A program made the position numbers and the translations under genes. The notes under the pieces are model-generated. The model searched no databases, was not told the origin of the DNA, and saw nothing but the letters and a program-made list of their open reading frames with translations. From positions 57,429 through 121,428 of the forward strand of contig CAMDTN010000003.1 in NCBI GenBank assembly GCA_945907755.1: DNA of 64,000 nucleotides, in the 5' to 3' direction. Origin of the DNA: Singulisphaera sp. GP187 (GTDB lineage: Bacteria; Planctomycetota; GCA-002687715). This document shows, piece by piece, positions 8,785 to 35,934 of the stretch (the first letter of the stretch is position 1; the number at the start of each line of letters is the position of its first letter).

Positions 8785-9840
8785 CTACCTTCCTTGTTGC
8801 AGTAACTGGCGCGCGGCTTCTTCCGCGCGGTCGGCTTCTTCGCGCGCACCCAACAGGCGCAGCGCTTTGGACATCTGGAAAAACACCGTGGAACCTGGAG
8901 CTGTGCGGCGCAGAGTGTCCAGATGCGTCATTGCATCGCGCGCGCGACCGGCCTCCAGCAAGAGCTTGACCAACTCAATGCGCAGCGCGGCGTTGTTTTG
9001 GTTTATCTTGACCGCCGTCTCGGTGTACTCGATGCGTTCGTTCAGCGCGGCCAACGCTTTGAAGCGCGTGAATTCGGCCTTGGCTTCTTCCTTGCGCCCC
9101 AGTCTTTGCAACGCGCGCGATAGGTTCCAAAGCGCGCCCACATGCCCCGACACTTTTCCAAGCACTTGGCGCATAGTCACAATGGCGGCCTCGACAGCGC
9201 CTTCGCCCAATTGTGTGCGCCCCAGCAAGAACAACGCTTCAATGTTGCTCGGCTCCAGCGCGGTTGCCATTTGCAGCGCGGTCAGTGCGCCCTTGCTGTC
9301 GCTCACATCCGTGCGCGCCAAGCCAAGGCTGTACCACGCCTGAGCGTGCTTGGGGCTGTGTGCAACACACGCTTCAAAGTCGGCAATGGCGGGCGAATAC
9401 TCCGCGGCTTCCAAAGAGCACAGGCCGCGGTTGTAGAACCACACGCCGTAGTTGGGGTCGGTGCGTGGGCCGATGGTGAGTGCGCGAGTGAGCGCCTCAC
9501 GAGCAGCCAGCGGCTTGCCGTTATCCAAGAGGCATTTGGCGTAGGCCTGAAACCAAGCGCCCTTCGCTTGCGGCGCTGCGATGGCAATTTGCAGCCAGTT
9601 CTCGGCATCTTTGATCTTGTAGAGCTGGATGGCGCAGACGCCTACCCAATAGGCGAGTTCAGGAGTGGGCGCCGCGGAGTAAGCGGCCGTGTAGGCGACA
9701 GCAGCGGCTTCGTAGTTGCCGCGCTGGAAATGCTGCTGCCCTTCGGCGATGGTTGCCGCGACGGGCTGTTGCGATAGTGCAAGCGAGCAAAGAAAAACCA
9801 GTGTCAGGAAGGTGCGCACGCGCTGGACTGTATCAGCCAA
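8785..9840 (-). CDS. Secreted TPR-repeat protein
   Basis: The 351-residue protein has a short signal peptide (RTFLTLVFLCSLALSQ) and about eight tetratricopeptide units, for example GQQHFQRGNYEAAAVAYTAA, WYSLGLARTDVSDSKGALTA and LFLLGRTQLGEGAVEAAIVT. TPR arrays mediate protein-protein contacts. The start used here is a TTG at 9840; a GTG at 9819 would give an equally good signal peptide. The CRTAC1 gene follows after five bases, so the two are very probably cotranscribed and may form a periplasmic complex. No catalytic motif is visible. Confidence 0.8.
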   Translation of the reverse strand: MADTVQRVRTFLTLVFLCSLALSQQPVAATIAEGQQHFQRGNYEAAAVAYTAAYSAAPTPELAYWVGVCAIQLYKIKDAENWLQIAIAAPQAKGAWFQAYAKCLLDNGKPLAAREALTRALTIGPRTDPNYGVWFYNRGLCSLEAAEYSPAIADFEACVAHSPKHAQAWYSLGLARTDVSDSKGALTALQMATALEPSNIEALFLLGRTQLGEGAVEAAIVTMRQVLGKVSGHVGALWNLSRALQRLGRKEEAKAEFTRFKALAALNERIEYTETAVKINQNNAALRIELVKLLLEAGRARDAMTHLDTLRRTAPGSTVFFQMSKALRLLGAREEADRAEEAARQLLQQGR

Positions 9841-9891
9841 TGCGACCTACGGGCTTGAGCACGCGGGAGCACAGTGCGGCGCTGACTTCGA

Positions 9892-11523
9892 TCACAGCGT
9901 CTTCACCCAATTGCGAAAATCTTTGTCCAAGGCGTCGAAATCCACATCCTTGAAGGCCAGATCCACGGCGCCATCCAAGATCTTCCCAATCTCGTCGCCC
10001 ATCAGGCGCATCCTGCGCATCATCTTCTTGTCTTCGTCGCTGGTCTTGTCGTCCTTAGCGTCTTTCTCGTCTTGTTCCTTGTTGAAGACTTGGGTCTTGG
10101 CAACCAACTCTTTGTAGTACATGTCTGGAATGTCTTGCCAGCGTTTGTTCTTGGTCACCTTGCGCAAGAAATAAACCAGCGCCCAGCCTTGGGCGTATTT
10201 GAATCCGCCGTTGGTGTAGTACTCCGATTGGGGATAGCGCACCAATGATTTCACTGGGATCAGGTCGTTGCCTTTGCCCATGTGGTCCTTCAAGTGGCCG
10301 ACGCGCCAATCGAAGGTGTCGATCTTGACCGACTGCCCGCCAATGGTGGAGCCAGCAAAGTAGTCGCCGTGCCCTTCGTTGAACCACGAATGCGGCGCCA
10401 GATCACCTGCCGCATAGAAGATGTATTGGTGGAACGCCTCGTGATACATCACCGATTTGCAGTACTCGCGCGAGTTCTTCTTCGACTCGCCGGTGAAGCG
10501 CGTGAACAGAACCAATTCTTCTTTCTCGCTGTTCCAATAGCCGGCAGAGCCCTGCGGGCCGCCGTAGCCGTGGTAATCCGCTTGGTTTGAAAACACGCGC
10601 ACGGTGCTGATCTCGGTAATCGGTTTCAGCGGCGGGAACAGTTTCTCGTACACCTTGGCGCGAATGATCTCGATTTCCTTGCTGAGCTCTGTGAGGAAGC
10701 CCTTCTCGGGCTCATCGCTCAAGAAAACATAGTTTTTGCTGTCCGTTGCGTACCAGCCGGGATTGCCAGTGATGCTGGCGCGAATGGCTTCGCGCTTTGC
10801 GGGCCCTTCCAGTTTGGTGATGTCGCGATTGACCGTGGCGGCGCCTGGCTGGCCTTCCGGCGGAAACAGCTTGAAGCTCTGAATGCTCTTCAAGTAGATC
10901 TCTGCCCAGTTCTTCTTGTAGGTTTCTTCGAAGGCGGTGTAGACCACGCCCCATTCCACATTGTCGCCAGTGAACACAGCGACACAGATGGTCTGTGCGC
11001 GCGCGCCCCATTCCGCGCTCCAGCCCTTCAATGCACCCGCCTTGATGTCCTTCTTGGTGTAGCGCTTCGCGGCGCCTTCGTACTCGTTCTCAATCCACTC
11101 TTCCATGGACTTCGGTTCTGCCTTCTTGCCAAACCTGATCACGGCACCCTTGACTGCCTCCTCAACACTTCCCTCACTCACGGGCTTCACTTCTTCCGCG
11201 GGTTTGTTGGGCGCGGTTGTGGTGCCCGGCAGCGGCACTCGCAGAATGCGCAGCTCGGCCACCTGCGCTTCGTTGTATTGCTCGTAAGCCCCGCGGCGTT
11301 CAAGCTCGGCCATGTCCGGTTTCCAGCAACCCACGACATACTTCGTGCCGGTTTCCACCGTGGTGGACTTCCAACCTTTGATGGGGCGGATGCTGTAGCC
11401 CCACTCTTTGATCTTCTGCACATCGCCGAGTTCTGCTGGGCCTAGGAAAGCGAGAGGCGCAAGCACCAGAGCGAATAGGACGGCATTGCTGGGCAGTTTG
11501 ATGAACGGGCTCCTTGCGGGCAC
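9892..11523 (-). CDS. Secreted gluzincin-like metalloprotease (DUF1570-type)
   Basis: The 543-residue protein starts with a hydrophobic leader (LPSNAVLFALVLAPLAFLG). The last third carries SVMYHEAFHQYIFYAA, a HExxH zinc site, followed about 15 residues later by WFNEGHGDYFAG, whose Glu is the likely third ligand; this is the arrangement of DUF1570-type gluzincins. The tail is strongly charged (DEKDAKDDKTSDEDKK) and looks like a flexible linker before a final helix. Residues 30-280 have no recognised domain. The GTG start at 11523 lacks a Shine-Dalgarno, whereas an AAGGAG lies just inside the gene with no ATG, GTG or TTG properly spaced behind it, so the exact N-terminus is uncertain. Confidence 0.75.
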   Translation of the reverse strand: MPARSPFIKLPSNAVLFALVLAPLAFLGPAELGDVQKIKEWGYSIRPIKGWKSTTVETGTKYVVGCWKPDMAELERRGAYEQYNEAQVAELRILRVPLPGTTTAPNKPAEEVKPVSEGSVEEAVKGAVIRFGKKAEPKSMEEWIENEYEGAAKRYTKKDIKAGALKGWSAEWGARAQTICVAVFTGDNVEWGVVYTAFEETYKKNWAEIYLKSIQSFKLFPPEGQPGAATVNRDITKLEGPAKREAIRASITGNPGWYATDSKNYVFLSDEPEKGFLTELSKEIEIIRAKVYEKLFPPLKPITEISTVRVFSNQADYHGYGGPQGSAGYWNSEKEELVLFTRFTGESKKNSREYCKSVMYHEAFHQYIFYAAGDLAPHSWFNEGHGDYFAGSTIGGQSVKIDTFDWRVGHLKDHMGKGNDLIPVKSLVRYPQSEYYTNGGFKYAQGWALVYFLRKVTKNKRWQDIPDMYYKELVAKTQVFNKEQDEKDAKDDKTSDEDKKMMRRMRLMGDEIGKILDGAVDLAFKDVDFDALDKDFRNWVKTL

Positions 11524-11765
11524 TTGGACGCATGCGGGGGAACCCCGACTCCGTTCATTGAGGAACCGAGACGAAGTCGTGCCACCCGCGTGTCCGGGCC
11601 CATCATCTCACGGTTTAGTGCTCCCGTGCAGGTTTCCTTGGGGCCCGCCCAATTGCGCCATTCAGATTCAAGCGTCGCCGCGCACCTTCCGATGGTGATA
11701 CAGACCGTCCGTCTGATTGGGTCACCGCTACGACCCATTCCTACGCCGGTTGAAAGGCAGCTTTC

Positions 11766-13079
11766 ATGGACCCGCGACCCCCCGAGGCCTCCTCGGATTC
11801 ACAGCCCCGCCAGCCCCGCAAGATCGCCATCATCTCGGCGGAATACCCACCAGAGACCGCGGCGGGGGGCATCGGCACCTACGCGGCAACCGTGGCCCCA
11901 GCGTTGGCCCGGGCGGGCTGCGAAGTCACTGTGGTCTCGCGCAGCCTGAACGGCAGCGACAGTTTGGAACAGCGCGACGGCGTGCGACTCTTGCGTTTGG
12001 TGGACTTGGCCCCTCCGGAAGGGTTTTGGGCTGCCCCGTTTGAACAGGCACATGTGCGCGCGGCGCAGGATTACTACCAGCGGGCCTACACCGTTGCCGT
12101 CGCTTTCATGACCATGCCCGAATTGGCGGGCAACGAATTGATCGAAGTTGCGGACTGGGGCGGGGAAGGCGCGTTGCTGCGAGCGGCATTGGCAGACACG
12201 CCCATCGTGGTCCGCTTCCACACACCTGCGCGCTTGGTGGCTCGCTGGAATGGTGTGGGCCAAGGTGCAGACCGCGGTTTCTGGGATGCGCTGCACGCCC
12301 TGGAAACTATGGCGGTGTCCAACGCTTCGGCTTGGACTTGCCCCTCGCAATGGATGGCGCGCCCCTGCGAAGAACTCTTTGGGTTAGTGCCGGGCAGCGT
12401 GCAAGCCATTCCGAATCCGTTCGATGCTGCGGCATTTGCAGCAACGACAGGTGCTGCTGCTGCGATTGGGCACATATCGCCAAACGCCGTGCGCGGCAGC
12501 GACATTGTCACCATCGGTCGCGTGGAAGCGCGCAAGGGTGTGGTTGAAGGGGCACATGCCATCGCCAAAGTGTTGGCGCTGCTGCCCGAAGCGCGCTGGG
12601 TGTTGGCAGGGGCCGATACACGCACCGCACCGGACGGTGGCAGCATGGCGCGGTTCTTGCGCGCGTTGCTGCCCGAAGACTTGCGCGGGCGCGTCGTCGT
12701 GACGGGCTCGCTGCCACGCGAACAACTGCCTGCGTTGCTCAGCCACGCTGGGGTGGTTTTTCTGCCCTCGCGTCACGAGAATTTTCCATACACCTGCCTC
12801 GAAGCCATGGCTACCGGCGCGCCGGTGGTCGCGTCAAAGCACGGAGGCATGGCGGAGATGGTTCAGAATGGATGGAGCGGCTTGCTGAGCGACCCCGCAG
12901 ATGCCGACGCCACTGCAAAGGCGCTGTTGCGCGTGCTCCTGCAACCGTGCGTGGCCGAAACCCTCGGGCGCGGCGCTGCCGCCGCTGTGAAGCGTTTCGA
13001 CCCGGATGCAGTGGCCGCGCGGCTGCACGCGCAGTACGCAAACACTGTTGCTGCTGCCGCAGCGGAGGTGCGTTCATGA
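11766..13079 (+). CDS. GT4-family (GT-B) glycosyltransferase
   Basis: The 437-residue protein has the two Rossmann domains of family 4 transferases. The N-terminal one contains KIAIISAEYPPETAAGGIGT, the acceptor-side Gly-rich loop. The C-terminal one contains DIVTIGRVEARKGVVEG and the donor-binding SRHENFPYTCLEAMATG with the E-x7-E motif. It probably transfers a hexose from a nucleotide sugar to a growing glycan in the cytoplasm. GAAAGG lies nine bases before the ATG. Its stop overlaps the start of the triple-fusion gene (ATGA). Position next to the flg operon suggests a role in flagellar or surface glycan synthesis; acceptor and sugar are unknown. Confidence 0.88.
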   Translation: MDPRPPEASSDSQPRQPRKIAIISAEYPPETAAGGIGTYAATVAPALARAGCEVTVVSRSLNGSDSLEQRDGVRLLRLVDLAPPEGFWAAPFEQAHVRAAQDYYQRAYTVAVAFMTMPELAGNELIEVADWGGEGALLRAALADTPIVVRFHTPARLVARWNGVGQGADRGFWDALHALETMAVSNASAWTCPSQWMARPCEELFGLVPGSVQAIPNPFDAAAFAATTGAAAAIGHISPNAVRGSDIVTIGRVEARKGVVEGAHAIAKVLALLPEARWVLAGADTRTAPDGGSMARFLRALLPEDLRGRVVVTGSLPREQLPALLSHAGVVFLPSRHENFPYTCLEAMATGAPVVASKHGGMAEMVQNGWSGLLSDPADADATAKALLRVLLQPCVAETLGRGAAAAVKRFDPDAVAARLHAQYANTVAAAAAEVRS

Positions 13080-16000
13080 TCCCGTGCCGCATCCTCATCA
13101 GCGATGTGTGGTCCATTCACAACGCGGGGGACCGCGCCATCTTGGAAGCACTGCTGCTGGAACTGCGCCGCCGCTGGCCGCAAGCCAACATCACAGTGGC
13201 CGCGCGTTTCCCCGAAACTTGCACGGGCCTTGGGCCGGTGACAGTGCTGCGCGACCCGCTGGCCTTTGATGCCGCCGCATTGCAAGCACAGATCGCACAT
13301 CGTTACGGTTCCGATGCAGCGTTAGATGCCTTGTGCACTGCCATTGAGTCCGCAGATCTTGTGGTCAGCACCGGTGGATACTTCCTGAACGCATCGCCCA
13401 ACAACGCGTTCGAGTTTGTCTTTCTCTCACGATTACTGCGCTATCAACTTGCGCTCGATCGCGGCATCCCAGTGGCGCTGCTGGCGCAATCCTTTGGGCC
13501 ATTCACCACGCCGCAATTGCAACATGCCGCGCGCAGCACATTGGTGCGCGTGCCGCTGATCACCGCACGCGATGTCGATGGCTTCGCCGCTTTGCACTTC
13601 AGTGGCATCGCGCCGCAGTGCATGCTGACCGCCGACATGGCAGCTCTGTTGCCAGTGGCGCCAGAAGCTGAAGTCGACGCCGCAGTGCGGCGTTGGAACA
13701 TCCCGCCGGGCGCCTTCGCTATCAGCGTGCGCCAGTATCCAGGCACACCGGTGGGGGCCTTCGCCGCTGTGGCGCAAATCGCCGACCGCATTGTGGAAAA
13801 AACTGGACTACCGATTCTGCTGATCGGCACCACGGTGCCGCCGGCGCAGCACGCCGAAATCGTGCGCACGGAACGCGCACTGGGCAACGACGATTCGCTC
13901 GCGTTGGCCGAAGTGCTTGCAGCCATGCGTCACAAAGACCGCGCCGTGCTGGTGAACGAAGCGCTGCCGCCGCGCGTGCTGAAAGGTGTGCTGGGGCGTT
14001 GCCACGCATTCTTAGCCACGCGCATGCACGCGGCGATTCTGGCCACCACAGCGGGAACGCCCACGCTGGGTATTGCGTACGAACCCAAAGTGATCGGCTG
14101 GTTCGATCAGTTGGGGCTACCTCAGATGGTGCTGCCGTTGAGCGCCATGAATGCAGCCGAACTTGAATGCGGCACCAATGCACTGTTGGAGCAAGCGGCT
14201 GCGCTGCGCGCCCACTTGGAAATGGTGCGGCCTGAAGTGGAACTGCGCGCACGCATGAATTTCGATGCATTGGAACTGTTGTGTGCAGCGCTGCCTGAAC
14301 CAGCTGGCGCAAGCGTCGCGCCGTCAGCGGAGGCCCCGCCCGCTGCCGCGGACGCGCGCCAATCGTGGGAGAGCGAGAGCCATCACTACGACACGCTGCA
14401 CACGCGCTTGCGCAAAGTGGCGGAATTCGTCGATTCATTGCCCGGCACACGCGTGCTGGACATCGGCTGCAGTGCAGGCACTCTCGGTGCAGCGCTGCAA
14501 CCGCGTTGGACTTATCACGGCTGCGACATTTCCGCCTCGGCGGTGGCCAGTGCGCCGCGGGGCACTTGTGTGGCGTGGGATTTGGAAACCGGTTTGCCGC
14601 CCTTCGACGGCCAGCCCTACGACGTGATTACGGCGTCGGGCATCCTCGAATACATCGCCGATGTGCCCAAGTTGTTGCGCACGGCGCAGGCGCGCTTGAA
14701 ACTCGGCGGGTCCTTGGTGGTTTCGTACTTCAACATGCAGCATGTGTCGCGGCGCGGCACCAATGCCTTCCGTCACGAGCACTGGAAAAACAACTGGAGT
14801 GCGGCGCAGTTCCGCGAGCAGTTGGAACAAGCGGGGTTCAGTGTGGCCACAACCACCTTCAGCACGCGCGGCAACGCGAGTGCGCCAGATGTGCGCGACG
14901 AAGCCGCAGTGTTGGCCGCTGAAGCGGCGCAAGACTGGAGCGCAACCAACATCGACGACCTTGCGCACACACTGATCTACACATGCACATCGGTCGCGGC
15001 AACGCCCCATTGTGATGTCAGCGTCGTCATTCCAGCGTGGAACAGGCTGGATCTGCTGGCCCCAGTGCTGGAGGGCTTTGTTCGCGAAGCTACTGGAAAA
15101 TCCGTCGAGATCATCGTTGTGGACGACGGTTCGGAACCGCCGGTGGCCACGCTGCTGGCAGCAATGGGCCAGCCCGCATGCGTGCGCGTGGTGCGCCACG
15201 AAAAAAACAGCGGCCGCGGCGCAGCCTTGAACACGGGCTTTGCGCAAGCGCACGGTGACATCGTCATTGTGTGCGACAGCGACATCGTTCCAGAACCGAA
15301 CTTCATCGACGATCATGTGCGCTTTCATGCGCACCATCGCGACGCGAAGGCCACATGCTGCGGGGCCTTGGTATGGGGCGTGGATGCCGGCTTGCTCGGG
15401 CGACTCTTAGGAGCGCGCTCCAATCCGCGATTGGAAGGCGGTGATCTGGAAGGCGCAGATGCGCATGGCGCATTCGGTCCCGTGGGGCGTTCGTTGCCCT
15501 GGACTCAGTGGTACACCGACAATTGGTCGTTCAAGCGCGCGGGATTCAGCGCGGAAGAAATGCGCTTCGACAGCAGTTATCGCGCTTGGGGTTTTGAAGA
15601 CCTTGAACTTGGGCGCAGATTGGCGCTGAGCGGCGCTACCAACACGCTTATGAGCGCAGCTCGCGGGCGCCACCTGAAGCCCGCCACTTTTGACGGCTTG
15701 CGCTCGTGCTTCGCTCGTTCGGTGCCCAACTTGCTGTTGTTGGCCCAAGCCGCACCAACAGAATCGGCCGTGCGCGATTGGATGGGCTGCCGCTGCAGCA
15801 ATCCCAAGGCTCTGGCCGCAGCGGAAAATCTCGTTGCCGCGCACTGGCGCCGCTTGGAAACCCTCGAACGCAATTTCGGCATGTGGGACAGTGCGGTGCC
15901 GGAAGACATGCGCCGTTTCGTAGCCACGGCTCTCTCGGATGCGCTCTTCCGCATTGGCGTGGCGCGCGGTTTCGCGAACAACAATGACAGTGCCACGAGC

Positions 16001-16240
16001 GCGGCCAGCGCAGACCCAACGCCCTTCCTCATGGACTTCGCACCGTTGGCCACAGCATGCATGTTGCTGGGCATTGCGTTGGGCGACGAGGAACCGAGTT
16101 GGGATTTGATGCGGACAGAAGTCACCAACCTTCAGAAAGCCGCGCGCCAACCCGCTGCCTTCGAAATCAATTTCCTAAAACGCATTGCGTTGCATACCGA
16201 CGCGCACGTGGGGCAGGCTGCCTCAGCCGCCGGAGCCTGA
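13076..16240 (+). CDS. Three-domain glycan enzyme: polysaccharide pyruvyltransferase - methyltransferase - GT2 fusion
   Basis: The 1054-residue protein joins three activities. Residues 1 to about 400 are a pyruvyltransferase domain of the CsaB/AmsJ type (VWSIHNAGDRAILEALLLEL, LVVSTGGYFLN, ATRMHAAILATTAGTPTLGI). Residues about 420-620 are a class I SAM methyltransferase (VLDIGCSAGTLGAAL at about 460, ITASGILEYIADV). Residues about 647-875 are a GT2 (DVSVVIPAWNRLD, EIIVVDDGS, DIVIVCDSDIVPEPN, YRAWGFEDLELGRRLAL). The last 180 residues are helical with no known domain. The ATG at 13076 overlaps the GT4 stop. I infer that one polypeptide adds a sugar and decorates it with pyruvate ketal and a methyl group. 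All core motifs look intact, and no frame break is seen at the domain borders. Confidence 0.85.
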   Translation: MIPCRILISDVWSIHNAGDRAILEALLLELRRRWPQANITVAARFPETCTGLGPVTVLRDPLAFDAAALQAQIAHRYGSDAALDALCTAIESADLVVSTGGYFLNASPNNAFEFVFLSRLLRYQLALDRGIPVALLAQSFGPFTTPQLQHAARSTLVRVPLITARDVDGFAALHFSGIAPQCMLTADMAALLPVAPEAEVDAAVRRWNIPPGAFAISVRQYPGTPVGAFAAVAQIADRIVEKTGLPILLIGTTVPPAQHAEIVRTERALGNDDSLALAEVLAAMRHKDRAVLVNEALPPRVLKGVLGRCHAFLATRMHAAILATTAGTPTLGIAYEPKVIGWFDQLGLPQMVLPLSAMNAAELECGTNALLEQAAALRAHLEMVRPEVELRARMNFDALELLCAALPEPAGASVAPSAEAPPAAADARQSWESESHHYDTLHTRLRKVAEFVDSLPGTRVLDIGCSAGTLGAALQPRWTYHGCDISASAVASAPRGTCVAWDLETGLPPFDGQPYDVITASGILEYIADVPKLLRTAQARLKLGGSLVVSYFNMQHVSRRGTNAFRHEHWKNNWSAAQFREQLEQAGFSVATTTFSTRGNASAPDVRDEAAVLAAEAAQDWSATNIDDLAHTLIYTCTSVAATPHCDVSVVIPAWNRLDLLAPVLEGFVREATGKSVEIIVVDDGSEPPVATLLAAMGQPACVRVVRHEKNSGRGAALNTGFAQAHGDIVIVCDSDIVPEPNFIDDHVRFHAHHRDAKATCCGALVWGVDAGLLGRLLGARSNPRLEGGDLEGADAHGAFGPVGRSLPWTQWYTDNWSFKRAGFSAEEMRFDSSYRAWGFEDLELGRRLALSGATNTLMSAARGRHLKPATFDGLRSCFARSVPNLLLLAQAAPTESAVRDWMGCRCSNPKALAAAENLVAAHWRRLETLERNFGMWDSAVPEDMRRFVATALSDALFRIGVARGFANNNDSATSAASADPTPFLMDFAPLATACMLLGIALGDEEPSWDLMRTEVTNLQKAARQPAAFEINFLKRIALHTDAHVGQAASAAGA

Positions 16241-16423: not shown

Positions 16424-17464
16424 ATGTCATCGCATTCCTTCGAAGTTCATTTCCGCACTGCTGCCCGTCGAGGCGGCAGCCTTGGTCCCGCGTTGCGCAC
16501 CGCCGCATTGGCCGATGGCATGCAACATGCGGATCTGCCTGTGCGCACCACGCTTGTTGCCAGTGCGCCTCCGGAAGTGCACGACCTGCTCTATATGCGC
16601 GTGCGCAACTTGGTGGCGCTGCCGGAAGAGTTCGTGTCGGACCTCGACGGCCATGGCTCCAGCGTGCCCGATGTGGTGATTGTCGATCCGATGCCGCCAG
16701 GCACGCCAGCGCACTCATTGATTCAAGCGGGCACAATTCTGGTGGAGCGTTTGGATGGCGCCATGTGCGACGACGACGGCCAGCCCATGGCGTGCCGCAT
16801 TCACCGCCGCGACGGCAGCGTCCGAGTGATCAGCGGCGAAGCGTCCATGCTGCTGGACCCTGCCTTGCCGCAATTGCGCGCGCAGCGCAAACCCAGTGGG
16901 CGCCCGCCTCGCGAATTGCTGATTCTTCTTGGCGCTGGGGCGCATCCCGTAGCCGAGCTGCGCATTGCCGAAGAACTCGCGCCCTTGGCGAAGACTTTCG
17001 AGCGCATCGACTTTGTGACGGGCTTCCACTCCACGACAGCGCACAGGCGCCAACTCGAACGATTGTTGCCAACGGCGCGCATCATCCCTGGCGCGCTGCG
17101 TCCTGCGGCGCTGCTCGCACGCGCGGATATTGCCATTGTTGCTGGTGCCGCTGTGGTGCGTGAAGCGGCGGTCTTAGGCACGCCCGCATTGCTGCTCAGT
17201 TGCGCAGACAAAGACCTCAGCGCCGACGCAGCCTTCGCGGCCCGCGGCAGTGCGCTGCACTGTGGGCACTTCGAAGCGCTCTATCCGCGCAAGCTTGCGC
17301 AGTTATTGCGCAGCCTCAGCGAGGACGACTTGGCGCGCATGGCCGCGCGCGGCCCAGAGATTAATGCCGGCAACGGATTGGTCACACTGCTGCGTGAATT
17401 GCGCTTGCAACCCGCAACAAAGCCCGCGAAGTTCTCTCGCAAAGTCAGCATCGCGACCAACTAG
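16424..17464 (+). CDS. PseG-like UDP-sugar hydrolase / GT28-type glycosyltransferase
   Basis: The 346-residue protein has a poorly conserved N-terminal half. Its C-terminal Rossmann domain has ADIAIVAGAAVVREAAVLGT, then PALLLSCADKDLSADAAF and a closing INAGNGLVTLLREL, which matches the PseG/MurG-like nucleotide-sugar binding fold. PseG releases UDP from the pseudaminic acid precursor that is used to modify flagellin in several bacteria. The other Pse enzymes are not in this window, so it may instead be a glycosyltransferase of the same fold. A GGAG sits about ten bases before the ATG. It is convergent with the GNAT gene, with no clear terminator between them. Confidence 0.6.
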   Translation: MSSHSFEVHFRTAARRGGSLGPALRTAALADGMQHADLPVRTTLVASAPPEVHDLLYMRVRNLVALPEEFVSDLDGHGSSVPDVVIVDPMPPGTPAHSLIQAGTILVERLDGAMCDDDGQPMACRIHRRDGSVRVISGEASMLLDPALPQLRAQRKPSGRPPRELLILLGAGAHPVAELRIAEELAPLAKTFERIDFVTGFHSTTAHRRQLERLLPTARIIPGALRPAALLARADIAIVAGAAVVREAAVLGTPALLLSCADKDLSADAAFAARGSALHCGHFEALYPRKLAQLLRSLSEDDLARMAARGPEINAGNGLVTLLRELRLQPATKPAKFSRKVSIATN

Positions 17465-17482: not shown

Positions 17483-18463
17483 TCACATCGAATCGAAGCC
17501 TTTGAAATAGAGCGGCATGAGTCCGGGCGTTGTGTTGAGGCCGAAGAGTGTGACTTCTGCTGGCGCCGTGGTACTGGGCGTTGCGCCGCCGCACCGAGCG
17601 AAGAGATCCGCCGGGTTGAGCGCTTGCAGCATGCCGAGGGCCCCATGCACGATGGGAACGCCACGAGCTGCAATCAACTGCATGGTCTTGTGTTGGTGCG
17701 GGCCACCCATCAGCACGATGTTGTCGCGGCCATCCAGCGCGAAGCACGCGCGAGCCAATGCCAGCACCGCTTCAGGCACACCTGCCCATTCATGAATGCA
17801 GCCTTGCAAATCGTGCCCCTTGCCGCAAACCGCGTAGGCATCGGGCACGCCGGCAGTTCGGGCATGCACCAAAAGCGTCATGGCGGGAATGCGCAGCAGC
17901 TCTTCCCAGTGGGCAATGCTGCGCAGCGTTCCCACCGGTTCGGCGTCGTGCAGGCGCATGAGCGCTGCAATGTCGCGTTCGGTGGCGCGTCGAATGCGCG
18001 GGCCTGCGTCGGGCGCAATGGCAGCCGGAAGCAATGCCAGCCATTCGCAACCAGCACGCACGAAACCGGCGCGTTCATAAAGCCCAGGTTGCGTGGCCCA
18101 GAGGACCAGCACATCGATGCTGCGTGCGCGCGCTTCATCTTGCAGGCGGCGCAGGACTTGCGAGGCCAGCCCGCGGCCGCGTTGCGCTGGGTCTGTGGCC
18201 ACAGCACCAATGACGCCGACGCGCAGCAGCCCCATAGGTGTGCGCAAGCGCTGCACGAACAGGGCCGCATGAGCACTGATCATGCCGTCGCATTCGGCCA
18301 CCATGCGTAGCGCACGCGCGCGGCGTCCCAAGAGCAGCGGGCAATCGTCCGTGGCACTGATGCTGGCGTCGGGGCGCAACCATGAATCCAGAATTGGAGC
18401 GAAGCAGCCTTGTTCCGTTGGCGCGAGCTCGCGCACAACGCACTTGGCTACGGTGGACGGCAT
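17483..18463 (-). CDS. GNAT-family N-acetyltransferase (two-domain, Eis-like)
   Basis: The 326-residue protein has an N-terminal GNAT domain with a strong acetyl-CoA motif A (GVIGAVATDPAQRGRGLASQ) and the LYERAGFVRAG motif. A second, degenerate GNAT-like half starts near PRIRRATERDIAAL. The ATG overlaps the flgL stop in a TGATG junction, so its translation is coupled to flgL and it is the last gene of the long flagellar operon. This position suggests that it acetylates a flagellar protein or a flagellar sugar precursor; no substrate can be named. Many bacteria encode FliW and CsrA after flgL, and neither is found here. Confidence 0.8.
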   Translation of the reverse strand: MPSTVAKCVVRELAPTEQGCFAPILDSWLRPDASISATDDCPLLLGRRARALRMVAECDGMISAHAALFVQRLRTPMGLLRVGVIGAVATDPAQRGRGLASQVLRRLQDEARARSIDVLVLWATQPGLYERAGFVRAGCEWLALLPAAIAPDAGPRIRRATERDIAALMRLHDAEPVGTLRSIAHWEELLRIPAMTLLVHARTAGVPDAYAVCGKGHDLQGCIHEWAGVPEAVLALARACFALDGRDNIVLMGGPHQHKTMQLIAARGVPIVHGALGMLQALNPADLFARCGGATPSTTAPAEVTLFGLNTTPGLMPLYFKGFDSM

Positions 18464-19929
18464 CACAACCAATTCAGCAGCGACAGTTGCTGCACACGGG
18501 TGGCCATCATCAGCGACGCGTTGTACAGGCCTTCTTGCTGCTTCAAGTTGATCATGACTTCGGCCATGTCCACATCGGCCTCGCTACTGCGCAGGCTCTC
18601 AAGAGTGACATCCAAGTCGGCGAGGCGCTCGCCCGTGCGCTCGATCTGCGACGACCGCCCGCCCAAACGAGCGATAGCCGAGCTGAGCGTGCCAGTGCCG
18701 CGATCCAAATCGGCCATGGCGCTGTTCAGTTGCGCGCTCACTTCCGCCGGCGGCAGCGTGCTATTGCTGAGGATGTCGCGAATGGCGAGCAGTGCGTCGA
18801 ACACATTCGAGCTGGTGCCATAGCGCACTTCGGTGGTGCCGCTGCGGTTGATGCCGCGAGCGTCCACATGCAGCACCGCGCCGGTTTCGCTGTCCACAAC
18901 TTGCTGGGCGTTGTTGCTGAAATCAATGGCCACACTGGTGACGCCACCGTCGGTTGACATCGTGCCGCGGCCATTCACGCCGACGCTGGCATTGCTGAGG
19001 CTGGGTGTCAGTGCGGACACATCCACAAACAGCTTCTCGCCGTTGGCCCCGGTGACTTCTAAATTGGTTTCGCTGCCAGTGAAAGTTTGCGCAGGGCCGC
19101 CGTTCAGGCTGATGCTGCCGGCGCCGGTGGCATCGGTGCTCAAGACAATGGATGCACCGCTGCCGAGAACCGTGTCGGCTGCAACGGACGAAACGCCGGG
19201 CTTAAGGCCGGTTATCGGATCGGTGCCGTTCGCCGTTGGTGTGGCGCCAAATAGTGTTTGCGTATGCCGCAACAGCAAGCGGTCGAAGCCGGTGCCCGAA
19301 TCTGAGCCCGCTCCTACGAGCGCACCTGTGGTGCCGTTGAAAGTTGTGGCGCTGCGCGGGCCCGACGCGAACACTTCGCTGCCAGGCAGCGTGAGTTCGT
19401 GAAAAACCGAAGGCGCCACTTCCACCGCGTAACTGCTGTTGTCTCCGGCATAGCTGACGCGCTGCAAGCCGTCGCTGCCCGTGACCATGCGGTAGGGCAC
19501 GGTGCTGCTGCGCGTGCCTGCGAATAAGTGCCGTCCATCGATTTGTGTGTTGGCCGCAGTGAGAACATTGCCCAAGATGGCTTCTAATTCGGCGGCGATA
19601 GCGGCGCGGTCGCCGGGGGCCATCGTGCCGTTGGCGCCTTGCACCGCTAGTTCGCGGGCACGCGACAGCGAATCAGTGATGTCGCTGAGCGCAGCAGTGG
19701 AGCTATCGAGGTAAGCCTGCCCGCGTTCGCCCGCAGAGATATGTCGTGAAATAGCTTCGCGCTGCGCGGTCAAGTCCATCACGCGGCGCGTGGCGGCGGG
19801 GTCGTCCGATGGCCGTTGCAAACGCTGGCCGGTGGTCAGCTGCGTCTGGCTCTTGAACATCTGCCCATAGTTGCGAAACACAGAGTTGCGCAACTGGCCC
19901 AAGACTTCATTGAGTGAGATGCGTTCCAT
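18463..19929 (-). CDS. flgL: FlgL, flagellar hook-filament junction protein (HAP3)
   Basis: The 488-residue protein has the flagellin-like N-terminal helices (MERISLNEVLGQLRNSVFRNYGQMF, with TGQRLQRPSDDPAATRRVM in its first 50 residues). It ends in the matching C-terminal helix EADVDMAEVMINLKQQEGLY, finishing at LLNWL. It forms the second junction ring between hook and filament. It is longer than the enterobacterial protein (about 317 residues) because of an enlarged beta-rich central part. It lies two bases after flgK, and its TGA overlaps the ATG of the GNAT gene. Confidence 0.95.
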   Translation of the reverse strand: MERISLNEVLGQLRNSVFRNYGQMFKSQTQLTTGQRLQRPSDDPAATRRVMDLTAQREAISRHISAGERGQAYLDSSTAALSDITDSLSRARELAVQGANGTMAPGDRAAIAAELEAILGNVLTAANTQIDGRHLFAGTRSSTVPYRMVTGSDGLQRVSYAGDNSSYAVEVAPSVFHELTLPGSEVFASGPRSATTFNGTTGALVGAGSDSGTGFDRLLLRHTQTLFGATPTANGTDPITGLKPGVSSVAADTVLGSGASIVLSTDATGAGSISLNGGPAQTFTGSETNLEVTGANGEKLFVDVSALTPSLSNASVGVNGRGTMSTDGGVTSVAIDFSNNAQQVVDSETGAVLHVDARGINRSGTTEVRYGTSSNVFDALLAIRDILSNSTLPPAEVSAQLNSAMADLDRGTGTLSSAIARLGGRSSQIERTGERLADLDVTLESLRSSEADVDMAEVMINLKQQEGLYNASLMMATRVQQLSLLNWL

Positions 19930-19931
19930 AA

Positions 19932-22271
19932 TCAGCGTGCCATGTCGAGCAGGACGTCGTTGACTTCCTGCATGGTTTGCAGATAGCGGCCTGCTACCTG
20001 GTAAAGCTGCTGGAACTGCTCCATCAGAAGCAATTCTTCATCCAAGTTCACGCCAGATTCGCTTTCGCGTTTGGCTTCGAGCGATTCCAACACCAAAGAC
20101 TGGGTGTCCAATGCGGTGGCCGAGCGCGCCGATTCGCCGCCCAATTCGGTGACCAAGCTGCGATAGAAGGAATCGGCGGTGGAATTGCCGAGGCCTTCGA
20201 TTTGAGTGTCCTGCAACGCCATCATGCGCAGCAAGTTGCCGTTGTTGCTGCTGCCGGCGTCCAGTCCAGCGCTGAACATCGTGGGGTCTGCTTCCAGCGC
20301 GGCGTTGACACCAATGTTGGTGGCGTCGGAGCCGGTGAAGAAAGCATTAAGGCCGATAGCGGCCAGCACATCGGCGCTGTCGCCGTCGGCCACGAGATCA
20401 ATGCTGAAGCGTTCACCCGAAGCACTGTCCAGATTGCCGGGGCCGAAGCGGATCTTGGTGCCGTCGATCAGCCCGAGTTCGCTATCAGGCGTGTATCCCT
20501 GGCCCACATCCAGTACTCCAACGATTTGGCCCGTGGCCGCGTCGCGCGCTTCCACTTGCAAGCCCGGCGTCACACCGATGGTGCCAGCGCCAAGTGGCGT
20601 GAACACCAGCGTGCGCGATGTCCCCGCATAGGTGCCGCTGGTCTTCACTGTCACGCTGTGATCGGAACCGGTCTCTAAGGCGGTGGACAAACCCAGCAAC
20701 GCGGCAGGCGCACCTACGCCGTCGGTGATTTTCAAAGTTGAGGTGGTGCCGTTGCTGTTCGAGCGCAACACGATGCGGCCATCCACCACAGATGCCGTGG
20801 CGCCCGATAACTGCGCATTCATCGTGGCGGCTACTTCTTGCAGAGTGGCAGCAGCGGGCACGGCGAATGATGCTGGGTTGAAGCTGATGGTTTGCGGCGT
20901 GCCGCCATCCACAGCGACGGTCATGGCCGCAGCGCTGGACAGATTGATTGGGCCAGTCGCGCCCACGAGGCTCGCTTCGGCCGCGCCGAATGTGCGCCCG
21001 AGGTTTTCTTGCGGCAACACACGGTTGCTGAAATCGAAGCGCTTGTTGCTGGCAGATTGCAATCGCAGCGTGCCAGTGGGATCGACCACCGCATCCAGCC
21101 CTGGAATGTTGTCCAGTGCAGTCTTCAGATCGCCCACGGTCATGCTGTTCGGGTCGATGACAATGCGCGTGCGCGTGACCACACCGGTTGCGGTGTCGGT
21201 CATGTTCACCACCAACTCGCCTTGACTGATGTCGAAGGGCAAGCCCGCTGTTGCCAAGCGGTCGTCACTGACAGTGCCGGAGCCATTCACATCCACGAAG
21301 GGCGTGGTACTGGCGAGTTGCGAGAAGCCACCCGCAGGCGGCACGCCGGTGGAGTGGCGCTTGTTGAACTCGAAGATCATGTTGCCGGCCAGTTTGTTCA
21401 GCGACTGCATGCGCTCTGCAGTGCTCTGCCCGGCGAGGTCCATGAGGGCGCGGAGTTTGCCGCTCTTAGGGCGGAACGCCGCACTCCCGCGCAGCGCTTT
21501 CACTTCGAAGCCGTCGCTGGCGAGACCGGTGTCTTTGATGTCCAAATCCACCACGCCTTGAGGGCTGACCAAGAGCGTTCCGCCGCTGACCACATTCAAG
21601 CGGCCTGATGCATCGCGACGCGCTTGCACATCCACATGGTCGGCGAGTTCGCGCAACAGTTGTTCTTGGCGGTCCAGCAGACCGGGTGCGACTTGACCGT
21701 TGATGCGGTTCGCGGCGATCTGGTCGTTCACCCCGGCAATTTGGTGCGCGAGGTTGTTGACGGTGTCGACTTCGGCAGCCGCAGCCGCTTCGAACGAAGC
21801 GCCGATGCCGCCGAGTTGCTGTTGCAACAATTGGAACGAATCCGCGAGCCCGCGTCCCGATTGCAACACGGAAGTGCGCAGTCCTGAATCGTCCGGATCG
21901 CTTGAAAGGGCAGATAAGGAACCTTGGAAGTGCGCCATCACGCTGGCGAGACCGTTAGGCCCCGGCTCTTGGAACACGCCTTCCAATTCCAACAGATACG
22001 CGCGCACTGTGCCTTGGCGGCTGACTTCGCTGCCTTGCGCCCGCAAGCGCCCGAACAGCAAGTCGTCGCTGACGCGCTCCACCGCGCTCAAGTCCACGCC
22101 GCGTCCAATCCAGAGGTTGCCGCTGCTGGAAGTGGGGCTGAGCGAGCTCAGTTGCACGCGCTGGCGGGTGTAGCCCGGCGTGGTGGCGTTGGTCAGATTG
22201 TGGCCGATCACTTGCAGCGCGCGTTGCGCAGTGGTGATGGCGGAAAGAGCGGTTTGGAATCCGATGCTCAT
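19932..22271 (-). CDS. flgK: FlgK, flagellar hook-associated protein 1
   Basis: The 779-residue protein starts at MSIGFQTALSAITTAQRALQ, which carries the axial-protein motif QVIGHNLTNATTPGYTRQRV. It ends with the matching C-terminal helix EELLLMEQFQQLYQVAGRYL. FlgK forms the first hook-filament junction ring. It is over 200 residues longer than the E. coli protein. The extra length lies in the surface-exposed middle, where several beta domains (for example LVGATGPINLSSAAAMTVAV) resemble repeated hook-protein folds. The ATG follows the stop of the FlgN-like gene after one base. Confidence 0.95.
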   Translation of the reverse strand: MSIGFQTALSAITTAQRALQVIGHNLTNATTPGYTRQRVQLSSLSPTSSSGNLWIGRGVDLSAVERVSDDLLFGRLRAQGSEVSRQGTVRAYLLELEGVFQEPGPNGLASVMAHFQGSLSALSSDPDDSGLRTSVLQSGRGLADSFQLLQQQLGGIGASFEAAAAAEVDTVNNLAHQIAGVNDQIAANRINGQVAPGLLDRQEQLLRELADHVDVQARRDASGRLNVVSGGTLLVSPQGVVDLDIKDTGLASDGFEVKALRGSAAFRPKSGKLRALMDLAGQSTAERMQSLNKLAGNMIFEFNKRHSTGVPPAGGFSQLASTTPFVDVNGSGTVSDDRLATAGLPFDISQGELVVNMTDTATGVVTRTRIVIDPNSMTVGDLKTALDNIPGLDAVVDPTGTLRLQSASNKRFDFSNRVLPQENLGRTFGAAEASLVGATGPINLSSAAAMTVAVDGGTPQTISFNPASFAVPAAATLQEVAATMNAQLSGATASVVDGRIVLRSNSNGTTSTLKITDGVGAPAALLGLSTALETGSDHSVTVKTSGTYAGTSRTLVFTPLGAGTIGVTPGLQVEARDAATGQIVGVLDVGQGYTPDSELGLIDGTKIRFGPGNLDSASGERFSIDLVADGDSADVLAAIGLNAFFTGSDATNIGVNAALEADPTMFSAGLDAGSSNNGNLLRMMALQDTQIEGLGNSTADSFYRSLVTELGGESARSATALDTQSLVLESLEAKRESESGVNLDEELLLMEQFQQLYQVAGRYLQTMQEVNDVLLDMAR

Positions 22272-22272
22272 G

Positions 22273-22818
22273 TCAGAGCTCCGTGCTGATGACGCGGCGC
22301 ACCGGAGGCAGCATGCTGCTCTGGGCACTGCGGTTGTAGGTAACGGGTTCGTCGCCGCCGCCGAAGACGGTGTGCACGATGGCGCGGTGCAAGTCCAGGC
22401 CGCAGCGCACCACTGCGGCGTTCGCGCGGTTCACCGCGCGAATCGCTTCCAGTGCAACAACCAGTGCGCTGCGTGCTGTGCTGAAGCGCTCGCGGTCTTG
22501 CGGCAAGGTGATGCTTTCCAGTTGGGTCAAGCGGATGCGATCTGCGCCCATGTTCAAGCGGCGGCCCACGGCCGTGAACACGCGCAGGCGGCGGCGCGTG
22601 AGTTCTTCGAGGCGCGCGAGTAGCGGGGAGGCGCCTTTCAAGCAGGCCTCCAAGCCCGGCATGTCTTGCACGCGCAACGCTTCGCGCTGTGCTTGCAACA
22701 CCAATAGCAGTTCTTGCTGCAAGGTGGTTTCATCCTCCATCCACGCCATCAACAGATCCACATCCGCGCTGGCAAGAGAGGTGGCAACGGTTCCGATCAC
22801 AGGGGCAGTAATGTTCAT
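22273..22818 (-). CDS. FlgN-like export chaperone for FlgK/FlgL
   Basis: The 181-residue, largely helical protein starts at MNITAPVIG, nine bases after a strong AAAGGAG. It has the long-helix pattern of FlgN (LMAWMEDETTLQQELLLVLQ, LLARLEELTRRRLRVFTAVG, ALEAIRAVNRANAAVVRCGL). FlgN keeps FlgK and FlgL unfolded for export. Position directly before flgK supports the role, although sequence similarity within this family is always low. Its start overlaps the stop of the flgJ-like gene (ATGA). Confidence 0.75.
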   Translation of the reverse strand: MNITAPVIGTVATSLASADVDLLMAWMEDETTLQQELLLVLQAQREALRVQDMPGLEACLKGASPLLARLEELTRRRLRVFTAVGRRLNMGADRIRLTQLESITLPQDRERFSTARSALVVALEAIRAVNRANAAVVRCGLDLHRAIVHTVFGGGDEPVTYNRSAQSSMLPPVRRVISTEL

Positions 22819-27533: not shown

Positions 27534-29645
27534 TCAAGCGGGGGCGAGTGCGACCTTGTCCAGTGCAGGATCGAAGGGCGTTTGCAGCAGCTTGGCCACA
27601 TCCACTTGCGCGCCGTAGGGCAGCGCTGGGTCCAAGTTCCATTTTTGCTTGAACACTTCCCAGTTGTCCAGCAGCAAACGGTTGTAGTCGATGTTCGCGG
27701 TCTTGGAGGTGCGGCTGCCGAGGTGGCGGATGAAGCAATCTTTGGCGATGCGCAATTGCCAACCTGCGCGGCGCGCACGGATGCAATAGTCGTCGTCCTC
27801 GAAGCCCCAGCGGCCATAGCGTTCGTCGATGCCGCCGATCTGATCGATGACTTCGCGGCGGCACAGCATGAAGAACAGAATCAAACGCGAGGTGTAGCCA
27901 TGCTCGCCCTTGCGCGCGTTGTGGAAAGTGTTGGCGAAGGCGTCGAGTGTGGTCTGCGGACCAGGAAGCAAGTTCGATTTCTGCCCGCCGCTGACGTAGT
28001 CGCTCATAGGTCCGACGATGCCCACATCTTTCCACGCGCCGAGGTGGCCCAGCAGAATGCTGCGCCAATTGGGCGTGAAGATGACATCGTTGTCGCAGAA
28101 CAGGATGTTGTCGCCGCGCACATTCTCGAGGGCGCGATTGCGTGCGGCAGGGGCGCCAATGTTGCGGCCCATTTCCATGAGGCGCACATCACTCTGTTGG
28201 CGCAGCCATTGCAAGCTGCCGTCGGTGCTGCCGTTGTCGACAATGATCAGTTCCATCGGGCCGTCGGTGTGCTTGCGCAACGACGACAGCGCTTCCTTCA
28301 CATGGGGGAAGCCGTTGAGGTTGGGAATGACCACGCTCGTGAGGCCCTTGGACAAGTCTGCCCCGCCGCGCGCTTCCGCCGGCGTGAAGCCAAGTTCTGC
28401 AGCCAATTGACCGCGCAAGCATTCATGCGTGCTGATGCGTTGCGTCTTGGCGCCCATGTCGCGCAGGAAAGTGTCGGCGGCTTCGCGCACTGAGGGCAGT
28501 GGCGAACTCTGCGCCAAGCGCACTTGGCTGGCTAGTTCTTGCACCAGGGGTTCGTCGGTTTCCAGCTTGCGGCGCACGGCGGCCCAGAAGACTGCGTCGG
28601 GAGCAGTGGGCTGAAAGATCAACTTGGGTTCGCGGTGTTTGCGCCACATGCGGTGCGTGTTCACGCCCAACAAGAATTGGCGGCGCATGTAGCGGTCGAT
28701 GTCCAAGTCGTGGTCGTGGTGCGCCACAATTTGCGGGTCGAAGAACACGCGCAGGTCGCACTGCTGCTGCAAGCGCCAGCCGAGTTCTGAATCTTCGCAA
28801 ATGGGGTGTGGGAAGTTTGCGTCGAAGCCACCCACTGCATCCAAGCAGCGCCGCGGAATGGACAGATTGCAGGTGTAGAAGAAGCGCCAGTCATTCAGCG
28901 CATTCGGCTTCATCTGGGTGTATTCGAAGAGCAGATTGGTGCGCTGCATCAATTGAGTGAAAGGGTGCGCCAGCTTTTCTGGCAAGAAATCGAAGCGGCC
29001 CAGCACGGCCATGTCGGTGGTGCTTTCCAATTGGCGCAGCAAGTGGCGCCGCAGTACATCGGGTGCCAGCACAGCGTCGTCGTTCAGAATCAGCACCCAA
29101 GGGGCTTTGGCCTTTGCTAACGCAAGATTGCGCGCAGTGGCGGGGCCCGCGTTGGCTTGGCGCAGCAATTCCACCTTGAAGGGCAGCGTTTTCGCAGTGA
29201 TAGCCGCCGGGGTGGGCGAGCCGTCGTCAACCACAACCACTTCGAAGGCCGATGGCGCCAAGTCCTGCTGGGCGAGGGAGTCGAGCAGGTTGTTCAGTGC
29301 ACCGTTGCGTTGGTAGGTGGGCACGATCACGGAAAGGAACGGGTCTGCGTCGCTGCGGCTGACGCTGCGCTGTTGGGCGTCGCACTGTGCCAACACCTCC
29401 GCAAGATTGCTGAGTGCGTCGTTGTCCGCGGAATCCAAGCGCAGCGCAGTGCGGAACGCAGTGACTGCGTCGTCGTTGCGCCCCATGGTCCAGGCAACCG
29501 CACCGAGGTCGTTCCAAGCGCGGCTCCATGACGAGTCGGCTTCGACCGCCGCCAAAAAATGGCGCATCGCTTCTTCAAGATTGTTTGCTCGAAATGCCGC
29601 CTCGCCTTGCGCGGCGCATGCTTGTGCTGTTGTGCGTGGGTCCAT
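27534..29645 (-). CDS. TPR - GT2 - GT2 glycosyltransferase embedded in the flagellar operon
   Basis: The 703-residue protein has two TPR units (about residues 8-85: GEAAFRANNLEEAMRHFLAA, AWNDLGAVAWTMGRNDDAVT). A first GT2 domain covers about 103-330 (LSVIVPTYQRNG, EVVVVDDGS, WVLILNDDAVLAPD). A second covers about 435-690 (SVVIPNLNGF, ELIIVDNGSTDGSLQWL, NILFCDNDVIFTPNWR, RYGRWGFEDDDYCIRARRAG). The start is the ATG at 29645. It lies between flgE and flgF on the same strand in an otherwise purely flagellar operon. I infer that it glycosylates an exported axial protein such as flagellin or hook protein, the TPRs holding the substrate. Sugar donors are unknown. Confidence 0.88.
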   Translation of the reverse strand: MDPRTTAQACAAQGEAAFRANNLEEAMRHFLAAVEADSSWSRAWNDLGAVAWTMGRNDDAVTAFRTALRLDSADNDALSNLAEVLAQCDAQQRSVSRSDADPFLSVIVPTYQRNGALNNLLDSLAQQDLAPSAFEVVVVDDGSPTPAAITAKTLPFKVELLRQANAGPATARNLALAKAKAPWVLILNDDAVLAPDVLRRHLLRQLESTTDMAVLGRFDFLPEKLAHPFTQLMQRTNLLFEYTQMKPNALNDWRFFYTCNLSIPRRCLDAVGGFDANFPHPICEDSELGWRLQQQCDLRVFFDPQIVAHHDHDLDIDRYMRRQFLLGVNTHRMWRKHREPKLIFQPTAPDAVFWAAVRRKLETDEPLVQELASQVRLAQSSPLPSVREAADTFLRDMGAKTQRISTHECLRGQLAAELGFTPAEARGGADLSKGLTSVVIPNLNGFPHVKEALSSLRKHTDGPMELIIVDNGSTDGSLQWLRQQSDVRLMEMGRNIGAPAARNRALENVRGDNILFCDNDVIFTPNWRSILLGHLGAWKDVGIVGPMSDYVSGGQKSNLLPGPQTTLDAFANTFHNARKGEHGYTSRLILFFMLCRREVIDQIGGIDERYGRWGFEDDDYCIRARRAGWQLRIAKDCFIRHLGSRTSKTANIDYNRLLLDNWEVFKQKWNLDPALPYGAQVDVAKLLQTPFDPALDKVALAPA

Positions 29646-29728
29646 GGTTTTTCCGTGTGTGTTTGCGAGGGACTGCGCTGGCGCCGACCGAGGCGGGCGA
29701 TGCGACGCCAGCGTGAAGCCCTCAAGGA

Positions 29729-35026: not shown

Positions 35027-35109
35027 TCACGCATGGCTGGGGCGCGTAGCTGGTCTTGATGGACTGGACGAACGCCCCTTGGAATTGGTGACTGGAAGGA
35101 GTGCCTCAC

Positions 35110-35934
35110 ATGGGTCTTCGCATCGGAACAAATGTGTCCTCATTGACCGCGCAGCGCAACCTCGCTCGCGCATCTGAAGCCCTCGGCCGCAACTACACGC
35201 ACTTGTCCACCGGCAAGCGCGTCGCCAGTGCATCTGACGATGCCGCGGGATTGTCCATCTCTTCGCGTCTGTCAGCGCAAATCCGCGGCCTCGACCAGGC
35301 TGTGCGGAATACGAACGACGGTGTTTCGATGGTGCAAACCGCGGAAGGTGGGTTGGCGGAAATCGACAACGCCCTCAGCCGCATGCGCGAACTGAGCGTT
35401 CAAGCCAACAACGGCACGCTGTCTGGCGCTGACAGGGACAACCTGCAGGCTGAGTTCACACAGCTCAGCAGCTTGGTTGACCAAGTCGCGAACAGCACCT
35501 CGTTCAACGGCACCAGCCTGTTGAATGTGGCGGCGGCGGTGACCTTGCAAGTTGGCTCTGGCACGACCGCAGGTGTGGACACCATGAGTGTGTCCACCGT
35601 GTCGGTAACCGCCTCCAGCTTGAGCATCAGCGCGCTGAACATCGGCTCCACAGGCGACGCGTCGGCGGCCATCGCGGCCCTCGACACTGCCATGCAGTCG
35701 GTCAGCAGCTCGCGCAGTCAGTTCGGCGCGGTTCAGAACCGCCTCTCGGCCGTGGCGAGCTCGCTCACCGTGCGCAGTGAGAATCTCAGCGCCGCCAACA
35801 GCCGCATCATTGATGTGGACGTTGCCCGCGAAACCGCCGAGATGACCAAGAACAGCATCCTGCAGCAGGCCGCGATCAGCGTGCTCGCTCAGGCCAACGC
35901 ACAACCTCAGGCGGCCCTCCGCCTGATTGGTTGA
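35110..35934 (+). CDS. fliC: Flagellin (FliC)
   Basis: The 274-residue protein starts at [20 protein letters not shown], eight bases after a strong GGAAGGAG; a GTG nine bases upstream is ignored for that reason. Hallmark segments are [40 protein letters not shown] and the C-terminal [20 protein letters not shown] ending QALRLIG-like (PQAALRLIG). It is a short flagellin: the D0/D1 helices are joined by only about 60 variable residues, rich in Ser and Thr, which are possible glycosylation sites. It has its own sigma-28 promoter and terminator and so is monocistronic. No fliS, fliD, fliW or csrA lies beside it. Confidence 0.97.

Follow-up and report, generated by a model that had tools for sequence, protein, structure and literature searches.

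An open reading frame beside a flagellar gene cluster was found to encode P0001, a protein in which a polysaccharide pyruvyltransferase (PST), a class I SAM methyltransferase (MT) and a GT2 glycosyltransferase were joined in one frame, all three domains being intact and conserved in a second genome of the genus. We lean towards the view that P0001 is a multifunctional enzyme of the flagellar locus, which would add a sugar to a flagellar glycan and cap it with methyl and pyruvate. The window referred to below is the whole stretch of DNA that was analysed, 64,000 nucleotides in length.

Fusion Gene and Domain Composition

The P0001 gene occupied positions 13076-16240 of the forward strand and coded for 1054 aa. 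A sequence-only reading of this DNA had described three domains with core motifs in a frame uninterrupted over 1054 codons, coupled by ATGA to a GT4 gene. Both statements held: the frame contained zero stops, the motifs were located, the domains were matched by Pfam families and the stop of the GT4 gene at 11766-13079 overlapped the ATG of P0001 by 4 nt as ATGA. All three Pfam matches were far over the curated cut-offs. PF04230 was matched at residues 16-336 (E 1.3e-28, 101.2 bits against a cut-off of 25.3), the match spanning positions 1-279 of the 280 of the profile, i.e. nearly the entire domain, while PF13489 (Methyltransf_23) was matched at residues 447-591 (E 4.3e-18, 66 bits against a cut-off of 27) and PF00535 (Glycos_transf_2) at residues 649-756 (E 8e-25, 88 bits). 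The NCBIfam equivalog cut-offs were not reached, as P0001 scored 93 of the 213 bits required for CsaB and 101 of the 370 bits required for EpsD. A fourth region, absent from the earlier reading, was a conserved helical C-terminal domain at about residues 765-1023 that was covered by no Pfam family. P0001 was the sole PF04230 match of its genome. The repeats flanking the gene were short chance matches only, and a plasmid search returned zero records covering 80% of the query. The features of the gene and of its surroundings were as follows:

11766-13079, forward strand: GT4 glycosyltransferase, translationally coupled (ATGA) to the fusion (Pfam; overlap kept in G002)
13076-16240, forward strand: P0001, pyruvyltransferase, methyltransferase, GT2 and helical C-terminal domain
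13076-14290, forward strand: PF04230 PST module, residues 1-405 (Pfam, PEP-site residues)
14291-14389, forward strand: Ala/Pro-rich interdomain linker, residues 406-438 (sequence; pLDDT <50 at 411-439)
14390-14995, forward strand: class I SAM MT module, residues 439-640 (PF13489)
14996-15355, forward strand: GT2 core, GT-A, chondroitin-synthase-like, residues 641-760 (PF00535; closest solved structures 2z86/2z87)
15356-16237, forward strand: remainder of the GT-A fold, then the helical C-terminal domain, residues 761-1054 (alignment; helices 872-1023)
16424-17464, forward strand: GT-B-fold protein of the PseG / UDP-GlcNAc epimerase / MurG type, 346 aa
17483-18472, reverse strand: GNAT acetyltransferase, adjoining flgL across the order (synteny in G005, G006, G007 and G010)
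18463-22328, reverse strand: flgL and flgK, the end of the flagellar cluster nearest the fusion
27534-29942, reverse strand: TPR-GT2-GT2 protein between flgE and flgF (conserved in G001, G002 and G005)
35101-35934, forward strand: flagellin, 277 aa

Conservation and Deletion within the Genus

The same fusion, with an identity of about 60%, was carried by another MAG of the genus (G002:C32, SXUL01000070.1, Planctomycetia); it began at the same first Met, was collinear with P0001 up to residue 1021, at which point the contig ended, and retained the 4-nt overlap with the GT4 gene. An assembly error, a frameshift, a contig join or chance was ruled out by this independent fusion. Between the genome of the window (G000) and G002, identities were 60% for the PST, 71% for the MT, 59% for the GT2 and 54% for the C-terminal module. 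The uncorrected pN and pS values were 0.23-0.35 and 0.59-0.76, respectively, with pS exceeding pN in every module, these ratios being indicative only because the synonymous changes were near saturation.

In a further genome of the genus (G001:C11, SIAO01000016.1, Baikal-deep-G176), ~4.7 kb corresponding to window positions 9729 to 14444 was absent, and the sequence was collinear on either side. The deletion, placed at about 3974-4159 of L038 with a junction known from one MAG contig, removed the GT4 and the PST together with a 543-aa gene and the N-terminal part of the MT. The remnant MT-GT2-C-terminal frame was open over 601 codons and was 61-73% identical to the window. No PF04230 match was found elsewhere in the G001 genome, and flgKL and the remaining flagellar cluster were retained. 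Hence, the PST was dispensable and pyruvylation was not required for the flagellum. As G002, with the intact fusion, was the more distant of the three genomes, a deletion in G001 would be the simpler reading.

Such a loss, together with the confinement of the fusion to one genus, could also be expected if P0001 were a product of domain shuffling or decay, a recent fusion in a variable and dispensable glycan locus whose trifunctionality was never selected. We regard this as very improbable, since the modules remained 54-71% identical between G000 and G002, with pN below pS and with the motifs intact.

Catalytic Residues and Predicted Structure

The PEP-site residues N16/G18/D19, R165, R219, R316, H318 and K338 were present in the PST module, and N16, G18, R165, R316, H318 and K338 were among the positions that proved invariant when six diverse PF04230 modules were aligned. 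For CsaB, mutagenesis was reported to show that R148, H308 and K328 are critical for the binding of PEP, and docking indicated the same for R306 (PMC10435577). The counterparts of R148, R306, H308 and K328 in P0001 were R165, R316, H318 and K338, respectively, matched by motif and spacing and not by alignment, and the H-to-K spacing was 20 in both proteins. The PF04230 family is marked by the motifs N-x-G-D and R-x-x-x-(S/T) (PMC10629545). The former was found as N16-A-G-D19, and the latter was altered, reading R165-DVD-G169 in P0001, with Gly for Ser/Thr, and R-DVE-G in G002.

The altered motif would fit a PST-like module that is merely GT-B-like or binding and performs no ketal-pyruvyl transfer, leaving the protein functionally an MT-GT2. 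Moreover, PF04230 enzymes have a GT-B-like fold (PMC10629545), and the module N-terminal to MT-GT2 in the fusions of two other planctomycetes (G224 and G124, described below) was a GT4, that is, a GT-B glycosyltransferase. Loss of pyruvyl transfer was nevertheless considered improbable, given that the PEP-binding residues of CsaB had counterparts that were invariant in the six diverse members.

The SAM motif I of the MT module was VLDIGCSAG (460-468). In the GT2 module, DDGS (683-686), DSD (734-736, the DxD motif), WGFED (838-842, with the ED base) and H866 were located, the last two extending past the core to about residue 868; the DDGS, DSD, WGFED and C-terminal His motifs were invariant or conservatively replaced in seven sequences. 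The nearest solved relatives of the GT2 were the E. coli K4 chondroitin polymerase (2z86/2z87), then bacterial GT2 enzymes and polypeptide GalNAc-transferases, and the donor sugar is left undefined by the likeness to chondroitin polymerase.

An AlphaFold model of P0001, built from a 15-row alignment, had a mean pLDDT of 81 and consisted of separate folded modules with a disordered linker at 411-439, the pTM of 0.54 making the relative placement of the modules unreliable. The C-terminal region was modeled as a set of helices of at most 26 residues each rather than a single long coiled coil. When the entire model was submitted to Foldseek, GT-A matches alone were returned among the top 50, so that this search gave no confirmation of the PST and MT folds. 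A search of the PST module profile against the PDB gave noise and a 27-residue match to Pvg1p (5ax7, E 0.1), which was discarded.

Flagellar Neighbourhood

The fusion gene bordered the flagellar cluster on its flgL side, just beyond the flgL-GNAT pair. The gene order was GNAT, flgL, flgK, flgN, flgI, flgH, flgA, flgG, flgF, TPR-GT2-GT2, flgE, flgD, fliK and flagellin, followed by a sigma factor, flhA and flhB. The genome had three short flagellins, and the flagellin gene of this cluster was 19 kb away from the fusion. The genes on the fusion side ran opposite to flgL-flgK and may represent a separate unit.

Glycan genes, namely the GNAT and GT-B genes by flgL and the double-GT2 gene by flgF, were linked to flagellar genes and conserved across genera. 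A genome of another genus (G005) kept GT2-GT2, flgF, flgG, flgA, flgI, flgN, flgK, flgL, the GNAT and the GT-B protein, and flgL was followed by the GNAT also in G006, G007 and G010. The double-GT2 gene by flgF, inserted between flgE and flgF and conserved throughout the family, was 52-81% identical in G001, G002 and G005, which makes four genomes with that of the window. The flagellar linkage of the fusion gene itself was seen within the genus only. No glycan Pfam matches were obtained for the G005 genes past the PseG-like gene or for the G006 genes near flgL, an FGE-sulfatase domain being present in G006 only.

The GT-B protein at 16424-17464 gave a TIGR03590 (PseG-like) match with E 5.7e-7, far under the cut-off, and its model (pLDDT 72) led in Foldseek to UDP-GlcNAc 2-epimerases and MurG. 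A pseudaminic or legionaminic acid pathway, hinted at by this PseG-like neighbour, was rejected. No NeuB/PseI synthase was found in the genome (MAG 97% complete), the sole NeuB match being a DAHP synthase by sequence, and zero PF01973 matches were obtained; without a NulO synthase, the standard pseudaminate pathway was unlikely.

Related Fusions in Planctomycetota

Among 392 Planctomycetota genomes, the PST-MT-GT2 order was found in two of the three genomes of the genus and nowhere else. A GTDB-wide peptide-pattern scan, which reaches close relatives only, gave no PST-MT-GT2 protein outside the genus, and none was found by literature searches; the same domain order is possible in distant proteins of other phyla. 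The architecture had been described earlier as non-standard, and this stands for the exact order, but has to be narrowed in view of other multi-module PST fusions and of a known GT2-MT fusion acting on flagellin.

In two genomes of unrelated families, G224 and G124, GT4-MT-GT2 proteins of 1103 and 1229 aa, respectively, were encoded between flgE and flgF. Further, a genome of a distant family (G078:C2, L080:1011-9182) encoded a 2723-aa PST-FkbM MT-GT9-TPR-GT2-GT4-TPR protein that adjoined a TPR protein and flgL-flgK-flgI. Its PF04230 score was weak (35.5 bits), and the protein was not found in six relatives of its family. The rough chance of a single PST gene lying within 10 kb of flgKL was about 0.5% (20 kb of 4 Mb). 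As about 17 long PST frames were inspected, the G078 case supports a flagellar role without proving it. No flagellar genes were present in the stretches fetched around a 1399-aa PST-GT2-GT4 protein of G202 and a 1519-aa GT2-PST-polysaccharide deacetylase-radical SAM protein of G042 (G042:C52, L074:482-5038). The planctomycete glycan fusions were several and apparently of independent origin.

In four genomes of another planctomycete family (f32), a GT2 and a C-terminal domain of the P0001 type (39-50% identity; 39-48% over about 220-240 aa in one comparison) were fused to another GT2-TPR. They adjoined a homolog of the double-GT2 gene of the window, as well as GT and dual-methyltransferase genes, and none of the flagellar genes tested for was found in about 20 kb. 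Hence, the pairing of these two GT proteins exists away from flagellar genes too.

The f32 loci are in keeping with a role of P0001 in a surface polysaccharide, an LPS-like glycan or a glycolipid, the gene standing beside the flagellar cluster by chance; in that case too, a terminal sugar would be added, methylated and pyruvylated by the three modules, as happens in O-antigens and exopolysaccharides with pyruvate caps. Characterised PF04230 enzymes serve secondary cell wall polymers, capsules, O-antigens and exopolysaccharides (PMC10435577, PMC10629545, PMC6801904), and the M28 peptidase, ASPIC and TPR genes flanking the locus were not flagellar. Such a role was judged rather unlikely, though worth serious consideration: the annotated neighbours (part of the genes being annotated) included no Wzx, Wzy or ABC exporter, the GNAT and GT-B neighbours were kept by flgL in another genus, and parallel GT/MT fusions occurred in flagellar loci of unrelated families.

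Proposed Function of P0001

A flagellar role of P0001 was supported by its position beside flgL-GNAT, by the synteny in G005, by the conserved double-GT2 gene next to flgF and by the GT/MT fusions in flagellar loci of unrelated families (G224, G124 and G078). It was opposed by the loss in G001, by the f32 relatives away from the flagellar genes tested for, by the motif change at G169 and by the opposite direction of transcription. A terminal sugar modification of flagellin or of a surface polysaccharide, as put forward earlier, was therefore plausible, the flagellar context being the better supported and the product being a prediction.

As to the substrates, the order of the steps, the sharing of one glycan and the flagellar target, we infer the following scheme. 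The glycan would be carried probably by flagellin, the hook or a hook-associated protein, and its inner or earlier sugars would come from the coupled GT4 and the double-GT2 protein linked to flgE/flgF. The GT2 module, a GT-A enzyme with a nucleotide-sugar active site, would add a sugar to the growing glycan. The same or a neighbouring terminal sugar would be O-methylated by the MT module and would receive pyruvate from PEP as a ketal through the PST module, resulting in a capped glycan end that is methylated, pyruvylated and negatively charged.

A bolder proposal is made only tentatively, namely that the last sugar of a flagellar glycan is transferred, methylated and pyruvylated by a single chain, which would make this the first demonstrated pyruvylated flagellar glycan, and that planctomycetes repeatedly evolved modular single-chain glycan-finishers (PST or GT4 with MT and GTs) at flgE-flgF or flgL. 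Repeated non-orthologous MT/GT/PST fusions at flagellar positions would mean that modified flagellar glycans are made in the swimming cells of planctomycetes by proteins that resemble assembly lines.

Comparison with Known Systems

The type B GT2 of C. difficile (CDR20291_0242), which combines PF00535 and PF08241 and whose proposed task is to attach rhamnose to flagellin and methylate it (PMC5207246), resembled P0001 in domain content, with a GT2 and a methyltransferase in one chain in a flagellar locus. It has no PST module, and its function is backed by mutants and mass spectrometry, whereas that of P0001 was read from sequence. In the multifunctional FgtA (PA1091) of Pseudomonas aeruginosa, too, a flagellin GT2 is joined to a further transferase with a modifying role, but this is a phosphotransferase instead of a methyl- and pyruvyltransferase (PMC11833859).

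With CsaB, Pvg1p and WbbZ, P0001 shared PF04230, N-x-G-D, the PEP-site Arg, R-x-H and the Lys; it differed from them in the altered R-x-x-x-(S/T), and no MT and GT2 fusion of these enzymes is known. WbbZ of Klebsiella O1b provides a precedent for a terminal pyruvate cap (PMC10629545). For the PF04230 (WcaK) genes of the Citrobacter flag-2 loci, a role in the pyruvylation of flagellin glycans was proposed (PMC6993521); as in the P0001 locus, PF04230, GT2 and methyltransferases are found there in a flagellar glycosylation region, but as separate genes and in Enterobacterales. The 2723-aa protein of G078 also held PST, MT and GTs in one chain by flgKL, although its MT belonged to another family (FkbM), it had extra GT families and it was not an ortholog. 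The chain terminators of Klebsiella O7 and of the E. coli WbdD type are comparable as terminal modifiers (methyltransferase-kinase) fused to or complexed with polymerising GTs; in contrast to P0001, they form methyl-phosphate instead of pyruvate caps, contain a coiled-coil molecular ruler and belong to an ABC-transporter O-antigen pathway (PMC11231755).

GT2-MT fusions acting on flagellin, PST genes in flagellar loci and PST-GT fusions are already known. The parts of P0001 are familiar, but its domain combination looks new. A full-text literature search returned no paper dedicated to flagellar glycosylation in Planctomycetota, and the process appears undescribed in this phylum. With predicted transferring and capping activities in one chain, P0001 would lend itself naturally to studies of how sugar transfer and pyruvylation are coupled.

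Other Observations

Fusions of a nitroreductase with a pyruvyltransferase were observed at L075:177-2585 (G050) and L107:1660-3891 (G323), and in L072 (G119) a pyruvyltransferase was joined to a domain resembling the F420 hydrogenase beta-subunit. In the window, the reverse strand at 46511-52000, between the flagellar genes and gyrB/gyrA, encoded a protein of 1828 aa in which a Ser/Thr kinase and an AAA_16 ATPase were combined with two stretches of extracellular solute-binding protein family 5.
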